Shown here one piece after another: positions 29,421-32,020 of a DNA stretch of 64,000 nucleotides (position 1 is its first letter; every line of letters starts with the position of its first letter). The notes below the pieces were generated by a model, which was not told the origin of the DNA, did no database searches, and saw only the letters and a list, made by a program, of their open reading frames with translations. The DNA is from Pseudonocardia kunmingensis (GTDB taxonomy: Bacteria > Actinomycetota > Actinomycetes > Mycobacteriales > Pseudonocardiaceae), in the NCBI RefSeq assembly GCF_006716445.1, contig NZ_VFPA01000001.1:2170001-2234000 (forward strand), given 5' to 3'. The translations under genes were made by a program, and so were the position numbers.

Positions 29421-30962
29421 TCAGCCCGCGCCGGTGGGTCCGGACACCTCTCGCAGTCCACTCTCCACGTTCCACCAGCGCGTGCAACCGATCCTCCACA
29501 GGAACGGCAGATCGTGGCTCGCGACCACGACCGCCCCGCGGAAGGCCCGCAGCGCCTCCGTGAGCCGCTCGACGCTGTCCAGGTCGAGGTTGTTCGTCGG
29601 CTCGTCGAGCAGGAGCAGCTGCGGCGGTGGCTCGGCGAGCAGCAACCGGGCCAGCACGACGCGGAACCGCTCCCCGCCCGACAGGGTGCCCACCCGGCGG
29701 TCGACGGCGTCGTCGTGGACGAGGAACCGGGCGAGCCCGGCGCGCACCCGCTGCGGGTCGGCGTCCGGGGCGGCGGCCCGCACCGCGTCGAGCACCGGGG
29801 CGGCGTCGTCGAGCACGTCGAGCCGTTGCGGCAGGTACGCGAACGGGACCGCCGGTGCGAGCCGGCGCAGCAGCGTGGTCTTGCCGCTGCCGTTGCCGCC
29901 GAGCAGCCCGATCCGCTCGGGTCCCCGGACGACGAGCCCGTCCACCTCGACCGCCGTGCGCCCGGCCGGGAGGGCCGTCCCGGGCAGGTCGATGCGGATG
30001 CGGTCGTCGTCCCGGACCGCCGCCTCGGCGGCACGCAGCTCCGCGCGGGCGCCGGCGAGCCGCTGCTCGTGCATGATCCGGTACTTGCCCGCGGAGACCT
30101 GGGCCTCCTGCCTGCGCTGGTTCATGATGACCTTGGGACGGCGCTTGTTCGCGTGGTCGGTGGCCGCGTAGCGGGCACGCCGGTCGAGCGCGACCCGCGC
30201 GTCGGCGAGCTGCCGGCGCTCGCGCCGCAGCCCCGTCTCGGCCACCCGGACGAGCCGCTGCGCCGCCTCCTGCTCCACGGCCAGCTGCGCCTCGTACTGC
30301 GACAACGTTCCCCCGAACAGCCGCACCCCGCCGTCGCGCAGCTCGACGACCGCGTCCACGAGCTCCAGCAGCTCCCGGTCGTGGCTCACGACGACGAGCA
30401 CGCCCGGCCAGCCGGCCACGGCGTCGTACAGCAGCTCACGGGCCCGCCGGTCGAGGTTGTTCGTCGGCTCGTCGAGCAGCGCGACCGCCGGGCGACGCAC
30501 GAGCAGCCCGGCCAGCCCGGTGAGCACGGCCTCGCCGCCGGACAGCGTGCCGACCGCGCGTTCGAGGTCGACGGGCAGGCCGAAGCGGGCGAGCTCGGCC
30601 GCCGCGCGCTCCTCGACGTCCCAGCCGTCGCCGACGGCCGGGACCGCCGAGGCGTCACCGGCCTCGACGGCGTGCAGCGCCGCCCGCTGCTCCGCGATGC
30701 CGAGCAGCTCCGCGACCGTGCGCCGCGGGTCGAGGGCCACGTCCTGGGGCAGGTACCCGACGTCGCCCGCGGTGTGGACGGTCCCGGCGCCGGGCGCGAG
30801 CCGGCCCGCGACGAGCCGCAGCAGCGTGGACTTGCCCGACCCGTTGGCGCCGACGAGGCCGGTGCGGCAGGCCCCGAACGCGAGGTCGAGGTCCCGCAGG
30901 ACGGGGGTGCCGTCGGGCCAGGAGAACGACAGGCCGGAGCAGACGACAGCGGGGGATGACAC
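29421..30962 (-). CDS. ABC-F family ATPase (putative ribosome-protection resistance factor)
   Basis: 513 residues with two tandem ATPase domains and no membrane segment, the ABC-F design. Domain 1: GANGSGKSTLL, LSGGE, VALLDEPTNNLD, VSHDRELL. A charged linker of about 80 residues follows (YEAQLAVEQEAAQRLVRVAETGLRRERRQLADARVALDRRARYAATDHANKRRPKVIMNQRRQEAQVS), containing the P-site tRNA interaction motif region. Domain 2: GGNGSGKTTLL, LSGGERFR, LLLDEPTNNLDLDS, ASHDLPFL. Actinobacterial members include antibiotic-resistance factors of the OleB/TlrC kind. GTG start with GAGGTG 5 nt upstream; that site can be sequestered by the leader described at 30966-31037. It interrupts an otherwise conserved DUF5336-sucD order. 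Confidence 0.85.
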   Translation of the reverse strand: MSSPAVVCSGLSFSWPDGTPVLRDLDLAFGACRTGLVGANGSGKSTLLRLVAGRLAPGAGTVHTAGDVGYLPQDVALDPRRTVAELLGIAEQRAALHAVEAGDASAVPAVGDGWDVEERAAAELARFGLPVDLERAVGTLSGGEAVLTGLAGLLVRRPAVALLDEPTNNLDRRARELLYDAVAGWPGVLVVVSHDRELLELVDAVVELRDGGVRLFGGTLSQYEAQLAVEQEAAQRLVRVAETGLRRERRQLADARVALDRRARYAATDHANKRRPKVIMNQRRQEAQVSAGKYRIMHEQRLAGARAELRAAEAAVRDDDRIRIDLPGTALPAGRTAVEVDGLVVRGPERIGLLGGNGSGKTTLLRRLAPAVPFAYLPQRLDVLDDAAPVLDAVRAAAPDADPQRVRAGLARFLVHDDAVDRRVGTLSGGERFRVVLARLLLAEPPPQLLLLDEPTNNLDLDSVERLTEALRAFRGAVVVASHDLPFLWRIGCTRWWNVESGLREVSGPTGAG

Positions 30963-30965
30963 GGG

Positions 30966-31026
30966 GACACCTCACGGACGAACCGGAACCCGCCGGGCGG
31001 AGCCACGGACGCGGGCGGGAGGTGTC
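30966..31026 (-). promoter_or_regulatory. Anti-Shine-Dalgarno attenuator helix upstream of the ABC-F gene
   Basis: The eight bases 31026-31019 (GACACCTC) are exactly complementary to 30973-30966 (GAGGTGTC), which includes the Shine-Dalgarno GAGGTG of the ABC-F gene. A GC-rich inner stem (CCCGCC with GGCGGG) lies between them. The left strand begins at the stop codon of a four-codon leader frame, so a ribosome stalled there would mask it and free the ribosome-binding site. This is the layout of translational attenuation in drug-induced resistance genes. Confidence 0.65.
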
Positions 31027-31037
31027 TACAGGCGCAC
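31026..31037 (-). CDS. Minimal leader frame Met-Arg-Leu-stop before the ABC-F gene
   Basis: GTG CGC CTG TAG encodes MRL and stops at the first base of the anti-Shine-Dalgarno strand. TAGCGT at 31044-31049, the same putative -10 hexamer as before the erm leader, ends 6 nt upstream, so transcription would begin at or next to the GTG. Macrolides are known to arrest ribosomes at MRLR in the ErmD leader; an MRL-stop frame is a shorter variant of that theme. Such a small frame can occur by chance, and its credibility rests on the adjoining helix. Confidence 0.5.
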   Translation of the reverse strand: MRL

Positions 31038-31062
31038 GCCGCAACGCTAGCGCGCGCCCCCG

Positions 31063-31117
31063 TTGCAGCAAAGCCACTTTCCTGCAGCGTGGTGGCAGGA
31101 AAGTGGCTCTGCTGCAA
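31063..31117. terminator. Long hairpin downstream of sucD
   Basis: Two 23-bp arms (31063-31085 and 31095-31117) with one mismatch and a 9-nt loop. The arms contain GCCACTTTCCTGC and its complement, unrelated in sequence to families A and B but of the same size. The element begins 16 nt after the leftward sucD stop. No U-tract follows, as is common for actinobacterial terminators. Its distal arm overlaps the possible -35 (TTGCTG) of the ABC-F leader promoter. Confidence 0.75.
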
Positions 31118-31132
31118 TCGGGCGGCGGGAGC

Positions 31133-32020
31133 CTAGGCGCTCGCCAGGATGTCCTTCATCAGCTGGGCCGTCTCGCTGGGGGTCTTGCCGACCTTCACCC
31201 CGGCCGCCTCCAGGGCGTCCTTCTTGGCCTGCGCGGTGCCCGCGGAGCCGGACACGATCGCCCCGGCGTGGCCCATGGTCTTGCCCTCCGGAGCGGTGAA
31301 CCCGGCCACGTAGCCCACCACCGGCTTGGTGACGTTGGCCCTGATGTAGTCCGCGGCCCGCTCCTCGGCGTCCCCACCGATCTCACCGATCATCACGATC
31401 GCCCGGGTGTCCGGGTCGGCCTCGAACGCGGCGAGGGCGTCGATGTGGGTGGTCCCGATCACCGGGTCCCCACCGATACCGATCGCGGAGGAGAAACCGT
31501 GCTCGCGCAGCTCGTACATCATCTGGTAGGTCAGCGTCCCGGACTTCGACACCAACCCGATCGGGCCCGCACCGGCGATGTCGGCCGGGATGATCCCCGC
31601 GTTGGACTTGCCGGGCGAGATGATCCCGGGGCAGTTCGGGCCGATGATCCGGGTCTTGTTCCCCTTGGCGCAGGCGTGCGCCCAGAAGAACGCCGAGTCG
31701 TGCACCGGGATGCCCTCGGTGATCACCACGGCCAGCGGGATCTCGGCGTCGACGGCCTCGATCACCGCGTCCTTGGCGAAGCGCGGCGGCACGAACACCA
31801 CCGACACGTCCGCGCCGGTCTCCTTCATCGCCTCCTCGACGGTGCCGAACACCGTGAGGTCGCGGCCCCCGATGGTCACGGTCGTGCCGGCCTTGCGGGC
31901 GTTCACGCCACCGACGATGTTGGTGCCGGCCGCCAGCATCTTCGTGCTGTGCTTGGTGCCCTCGCCGCCGGTGATGCCCTGGACGATGACCTTGCTGTTC
32001 TCGTTGAGGAAGATCGACAT
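31133..32020 (-). CDS. sucD: Succinyl-CoA synthetase alpha subunit SucD
   Basis: 295 residues; with SucC interconverts succinyl-CoA and succinate with formation of a nucleoside triphosphate (TCA cycle). Starts [39 protein letters not shown] (CoA-binding Rossmann domain), with [44 protein letters not shown] and the phosphohistidine loop [25 protein letters not shown] (His of GHAGA). ATG start 2 nt downstream of sucC. Order sucC-sucD is conserved with Rv0951-Rv0952. Confidence 0.97.

Follow-up and report, generated by a model that had tools for sequence, protein, structure and literature searches.

What might a frame of only three codons do directly upstream of a gene for an ABC-F ATPase? The gene lies on the minus strand of the window, by which we mean the whole 64,000-nt stretch of Pseudonocardia kunmingensis DNA analyzed here. 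It encodes a 513-aa, putatively ARE5-like ABC-F protein with two ABC domains (29421-30962, with the GTG start at 30962-30960). An original prediction made from the sequence had read its leader as a translational attenuator that might sense macrolides through the encoded peptide.

Layout of the leader

The upstream frame, GTG CGC CTG TAG (Met-Arg-Leu-stop, 31037-31026, minus strand), follows a -10 element, TAGCGT (31049-31044), at a distance of 6 nt. The last base of its stop codon is the first base of an anti-Shine-Dalgarno (anti-SD) arm, GACACCTC (31026-31019), which is the exact complement, over 8 bp, of the SD arm GAGGTGTC (30973-30966). The SD arm holds the ABC-F Shine-Dalgarno sequence, GAGGTG, located 5 nt upstream of the ABC-F GTG. 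The arms are separated by a conserved linker (30974-31018) with predicted inner hairpins, and the leader measures 75 nt from the first G of the mini-frame (31037) to the ABC-F start (30962). The original prediction had placed the promoter-like TAGCGT, the MRL-stop frame, the overlap of stop and arm, the helix and the SD spacing correctly to the base. It had not mentioned what is the distinctive feature of the frame, its leaderless look, with a -10 hexamer only 6 nt before the GTG. Transcription would start at the G of this GTG, at 31037, or at an adjacent base.

A candidate -35 element, TTGCTG (31066-31071), is separated from the -10 by 16 nt; in the five closest relatives the corresponding hexamer reads TTGCGT or TTGCAA and the spacing is 17–18 nt. 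The candidate falls within the 3' arm of a long inverted repeat, recognized by eye, that occupies 31063-31117 between the leader and sucD, which ends at 31133 on the same strand. This repeat is possibly the sucCD terminator. It is absent from the output of a terminator scan of 30600-31600, and inverted repeats of different sequence are seen by eye at the corresponding place in all five closest relatives (L009-L012 and L022). No promoter emerged from a strict sigma-70 scan of 30600-31600, the terminator scan of this interval (a simple one, which would miss Rho-dependent sites) listed nothing terminator-like for the minus strand, and Rfam gave no window match at gathering score.

The protein contains two ABC_tran stretches, its remaining Pfam matches being P-loop models. 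The best NCBIfam model, ribo_prot_ABC_F, scores 283 bits versus a cut-off of 380, and a search of solved structures returned general ABC-F matches, with nine sequences at E 1e-40. The nearest named relatives are from Pseudonocardia sp. MH-G8 (90% identity) and CNS-004 (80%). Proteins from loci with MLV and DDDISG leaders are 50–66% identical to it, in a comparison that included no reference Are5sc or TiaA sequence. A second ABC-F in the same genome (L002, G000:C3:1245789-1247384) is 53% identical to the window's protein; its leader frame, MAGDDDISG-stop, is by eye of the tiaA type.

Conservation among the closest leaders

We aligned the window leader with those of L009-L012 and L022, whose proteins are 78–92% identical to the window's. 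In all six leaders a TANNNT precedes GTGCGC by 6–7 nt and an in-frame stop follows the third codon. As third codon the window has CTG, L009 has TCC and the remaining four have AGC; one leader thus encodes MRL and five encode MRS. At that point the window is one base longer and has TAG where the other five have TGA; the stop is therefore kept.

Both arms, GACACCTC and GAGGTGTC, are present in all six leaders, L012 having GAGGTGTT with one G-U pair, and the helix is part of the minimum-energy fold of each. The linker contains many invariant columns, and the inner folds vary among the sequences. Apart from the G-U pair of L012 the 8-bp helix is invariant, with no covariation among the six; the compensatory changes that the original prediction had named as a check do not occur within the close clade, and complementary re-coding is found only between lineages. 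Of the conservation expected in Pseudonocardia, promoter, GTG, Arg codon, stop and helix are borne out by all six leaders, and the MRL peptide is not. As read from these alignments, it is the architecture that is conserved, not the peptide.

Survey of ABC-F loci

Protein searches covered the window's own genome and genomes of its genus (62), family (297), order (298) and class (296), in total 954 genome searches with overlapping genomes, at cut-offs of E 1e-60 for the genus and 1e-130 for family, order and class. The resulting set comprises 185 loci. Outside it stand four places from the genus search (one 50%-identical copy, part of the L022 gene and two partial copies of 46–48% identity), the weaker own-genome ABC matches L003-L008, repeats of places already included, and the L200-L279 set. 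Leaders were scanned for a TANNNT 5–8 nt before an ATG or GTG, a frame of 2–6 residues, and a helix of at least 6 bp between the first 25 nt of the frame and the SD region; these criteria were fixed after inspection of the first 92 loci. ABC-F starts were picked by a script on SD match, and some, probably that of L099, may be wrong. Sixty shuffles were made per locus, and 1000 for the window locus.

A leaderless frame of 3–5 residues with a 6–9-bp SD helix occurs at 23 of the 185 loci, where shuffles predict 0.10; for helices of at least 8 bp, 8 are observed versus 0.02 expected. Not independent of one another, the 23 loci group into some six lineages. Their frames are MRL/MRS (six loci; 5' arm GACACCTC, ACACCTC in L012), MLFS/MLMFS (two; GTGCTC or TGCTCA), MDL (one; GGACCTC), MDNLR (two; AACCTCCGC), MEF (one; TGAGGTCT) and MIF/MIL/MFL (eleven; TGAGAC). 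The 5' arm of each lineage has its own SD-side complement and begins at +0 to +11 from the frame start. Among the 185 loci the leaderless form with a helix is confined to the window's family, except for a single case in a neighboring family (L101).

On both strands of the window, the MRL frame is the only ATG/GTG frame of 2–6 codons that lies 5–8 nt after a TANNNT, and this sole frame also bears the 8-bp helix. Dinucleotide shuffles of the window's upstream region never produced a leaderless frame with a helix of at least 6 bp to the fixed SD region (0/1000). The arrangement in the window is not due to chance, because it contains the only such mini-frame there and because 23 of 185 loci share the form versus 0.1 expected. 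The promoter-frame motif alone is not enriched genome-wide, since TANNNT-N6-RTG-N6-TRR has 15 matches in the 9.1-Mb genome, of which 4 end in a true stop, and the reversed pattern has 22. The relatives' form, with TRR-N-ACCTC after the frame, has no match in the window's own genome; the window site cannot match it, as its arm lies one base further. At the other true-stop sites (L282, L284 and L285), where only the frames were inspected, no ABC-F was recognized. By eye, L284 has a leaderless-looking MPG-stop frame (~1501-1531) shortly before a putative MFS transporter.

A midpoint-rooted tree was built from 100 of the 185 loci, those whose DNA was sufficient and whose frame was open; six of the eleven MIF/MIL/MFL loci are in it and L022 is not, and several of its deep nodes are weak. 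The MRL/MRS, MLFS/MLMFS, MDL, MDNLR and MEF kinds fall together in a 19-member clade (support 0.889, as low as 0.285 at inner nodes), which also includes members without the arrangement. The MIF group forms its own clade (support 1.0) within a wider one shared with L051 and the SD-led L053 (0.983). Because this group is placed apart from the other kinds, two or more origins of the leaderless form are probable, the alternative being a single origin with many losses.

The sister loci L100 and L101 (support 0.998) share the 8-bp helix TGAGGTCT/AGACCTCA. The L101 frame, MEF, is leaderless; the L100 frame, MEH, has GGAGG in front and lies 36 nt from the nearest TANNNT by hand count. To judge from these two sequences, what counts could be simply that the frame is translated. 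L017 retains a 10-bp helix and has a frame without a stop codon. Kin in the same clade that lack the arrangement are L015, L018, L019, L021 and L032, and L099 and L100 are not leaderless. L015, L019, L021 and L032 have an MLIRR-stop frame and L018 has, by eye, MLTRR, ~150–220 nt before the ABC-F gene and 9–10 nt after a TANNNT.

Candidate transcriptional elements were also found. A palindrome, YGCGAC-N4-GTYRCR, which looks like a repressor operator, lies at or over the -35 in L009-L013, L016, L017 and L022, ~88–127 nt before the ABC-F start. A related form, TAACGC..GCRTTA, is present in L058 and L061, and L016 has, by eye, a TetR-like frame downstream. A AAATCGGTTGCC-like box, which we take to resemble the WhiB7/WblC promoter element, occurs at 20 of the 185 loci (for example L103, L110, L122 and L158) and is followed by a TANNNT at 14–19 nt in 14 of the 20; reversed and shuffled controls each gave 0/185.

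Predicted folding

Overall, the window leader shows ordinary stability compared with shuffles (z = 0.12); the helix is nonetheless in its minimum-energy structure. Masking the first 17 nt raises the predicted accessibility of the window's SD and start from 0.04, the value of the free leader, to 0.40; masking a different 17 nt leaves it at 0.04. Averaged over 24 loci, predicted accessibility stays flat, at 0.31 for the free leader, 0.33 with 17 nt masked and 0.29 with 26 nt masked. A clear rise with the 17-nt mask is seen for the window (L001), L009-L011, L017, L101, L058 and L059; in L058 and L059 it is limited to this mask, and L058 drops with 26 nt. L012 rises only with 26 nt masked, L037 and L038 rise little, and L022, L013, L014, L016 and the other nine MIF/MIL-type loci do not rise. 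Folding predictions support a switch for the window and for most leaders closely related to it, but not for all lineages.

Relation to known leaders

The MRL frame had been proposed as one of the shortest sensors of its kind, but three-residue leaders of ABC-F genes are already known (are5sc MLV, VmlR MIN, CplR MR[I/M]; accessible parts of PMC12421871 and PMC10201436). The ErmD leader, MRLR, shares the M-R-L start with the window; according to the accessible part of PMC8298421, macrolides and ketolides arrest the ribosome at its Arg-Leu-Arg, whereas in the window and its kin the Leu is not conserved and a stop follows. By analogy, the ARE5 ABC-F leaders of Streptomyces appear to be a better match than MRLR. 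In are5sc and tiaA, lincosamides, pleuromutilin and streptogramin A cause stalling at the start codon, and erythromycin does not (PMC12421871, accessible text). Like the window, S. coelicolor are5sc (SCO6720) has a three-residue frame before an ABC-F gene, which in are5sc is of the ARE5 type, and start-codon stalling by early-elongation inhibitors is its proposed signal. Its upstream frames are MLV and an overlapping MRS, for the latter of which no translation was seen (PMC12421871). The are5sc frame has its own ribosome binding site, in a 232-nt leader with transcriptional, anti-terminator control (PMC12421871, same portion); the window, in contrast, has an apparently leaderless frame and a 75-nt leader in which a single SD helix is visible. 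The MLV frame (TTGCTCGTCTGA, once TTGCTGGTTTGA) is found in 26 of 80 named relatives, one of the 80 lacking a placeable start. tiaA (SCO0636), likewise an ARE5 ABC-F gene, has a conserved nine-residue peptide, MVGDDDISG, in a 194-nt leader (PMC12421871, accessible text).

Very short frames also precede the Firmicutes ABC-F genes cplR, vmlR, vmlR2 and lsaA (MR[I/M], MIN, MK[L/Q] and MAGN). In cplR the SD is sequestered, as is predicted for the window, but the leader spans 212 nt and contains a terminator hairpin; leaderless initiation goes unmentioned for these four leaders in the accessible part of the report (PMC10201436). Ribosome-mediated transcriptional attenuation is described for Streptomyces lmrC (PMC8546547, in part). 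In mycobacteria a 5'-end ATG or GTG is necessary and sufficient for leaderless translation, and leaderless small upstream frames, with their start codon at the mRNA 5' end, are widespread; the accessible portion of that report does not tie them to ABC-F genes or antibiotic sensing (PMC4633059). We recognized no description of a leaderless frame joined with an ABC-F attenuator in the literature searched, in which subscription journals were thinly covered. The attenuation principle is known; its leaderless, SD-less and apparently terminator-free form seems undescribed.

Proposed mechanism and alternatives

We favor, with a probability of about 0.7, a model in which the leader acts as a minimal translational attenuator for a ribosome-protection gene of the ARE5 type of ABC-F: a ribosome trapped at the start codon of the mini-frame would operate it by covering the anti-SD arm. 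The message would begin with the leaderless Met-Arg-Leu-stop frame, at or next to G 31037. Without drug, a 70S ribosome would complete the three codons and depart, and the freed GACACCTC, complementary to GAGGTGTC and paired with it in the predicted fold, would hide the ABC-F SD and repress translation. A drug acting on the peptidyl transferase would trap the ribosome at the start codon or during its first steps. A ribosome's footprint extends ~17 nt downstream, and that of the trapped ribosome would cover most or all of the anti-SD arm (+11 to +18), blocking the helix and allowing ABC-F to be translated. The attenuation geometry put forward in the original prediction is supported in that the frame is conserved in relatives and the helix would hide the SD and overlaps the expected footprint. 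Against the model stand the lack of covariation within the close clade, the flat mean accessibility over 24 loci, the missing stop of L017 and the clade members without the arrangement. A ribosome at the start codon would already have the arm within its footprint, so the peptide would not need a particular sequence and its residues could vary; this favors a sensor of footprint over a sensor of peptide. By analogy with are5sc and tiaA, the inducers would be expected to be lincosamides, pleuromutilins and streptogramin A, not macrolides. We also lean, more tentatively, toward the leaderless micro-frame being the drug sensor itself: the mRNA would start with the sensor, dispense with an SD, a terminator and a specific peptide, and act through the footprint of one trapped 70S ribosome. 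SD-led ARE5 leaders would probably have given rise to such a sensor on two or more occasions.

Other readings of the leader fare less well. The helix could by itself simply hold translation low, a static hairpin that lowers ABC-F expression constitutively next to an incidental mini-frame, with control exerted on transcription by a repressor at the palindrome or by a WhiB7/WblC-like activator. Of 32 leaders scanned, 8 have the palindrome over the -35, among them those of all five closest relatives; this and the WhiB7-like boxes of the survey fit the proposal. We nevertheless regard it as unlikely: neither palindrome nor box was found in the window, and the mini-frame retains its start and stop across several lineages whose helices are unrelated. 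Still less probable is transcriptional attenuation, in which stalling would prevent an intrinsic or Rho-dependent terminator from acting inside the leader. Regulation of are5sc and lmrC is reported to be transcriptional (accessible parts of PMC12421871 and PMC8546547), but the window leader is short, its main helix includes the SD, and the simple scan, which Rho-dependent terminators would escape, detected nothing like a terminator; an intrinsic terminator was rejected on this basis.

We give the least credence, by a small step, to the macrolide sensing of the original prediction, namely that an erythromycin-bound ribosome arrests on Met-Arg-Leu as it does on the MRLR peptide of ErmD. The window's residues do equal the start of MRLR, and erythromycin stalling on ErmDL tolerates Ala at either Arg of RLR, so that a loose requirement is conceivable (PMC8298421, in part). 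However, the window has a stop codon where MRLR has its second Arg and thus lacks the ErmD-type Arg-X-Arg, and the two related ARE5 leaders that were tested gave no erythromycin response (PMC12421871, accessible text). A peptide-specific sensor of the MRL/MRLR type appears unlikely above all because M-R-L is not conserved: five of the six closest leaders encode MRS and other lineages quite different residues, and peptide-specific MRL sensing was rejected on these grounds.

If the footprint model is true, drug sensing by an RNA would require just a stop codon, a single helix with the SD and a promoter positioned so that the message opens with a start codon, and the leader would be one of the smallest complete attenuators that sense antibiotics. 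Leaderless initiation, which is common in mycobacteria and related bacteria, would acquire a defined regulatory role in intrinsic tolerance of antibiotics. The leaders form a natural series (MRL, MRS, MEF, MDL, MIF and MDNLR; leaderless versus SD-led) for the question of peptide identity versus footprint position.

Other short frames at ABC-F loci

Inspection by eye revealed further arrangements among the surveyed loci. In L085, L088, L092 and L097 the ABC-F ATG itself seems leaderless, with TTACGGT or TACCGT a few nucleotides before it and no space for a leader frame. The long ABC-F leaders of L069-L072, L075, L076, L078 and L079 contain possible two-codon frames: GTG ACG TGA, GTG ATG TGA and GTG ACA TGA.
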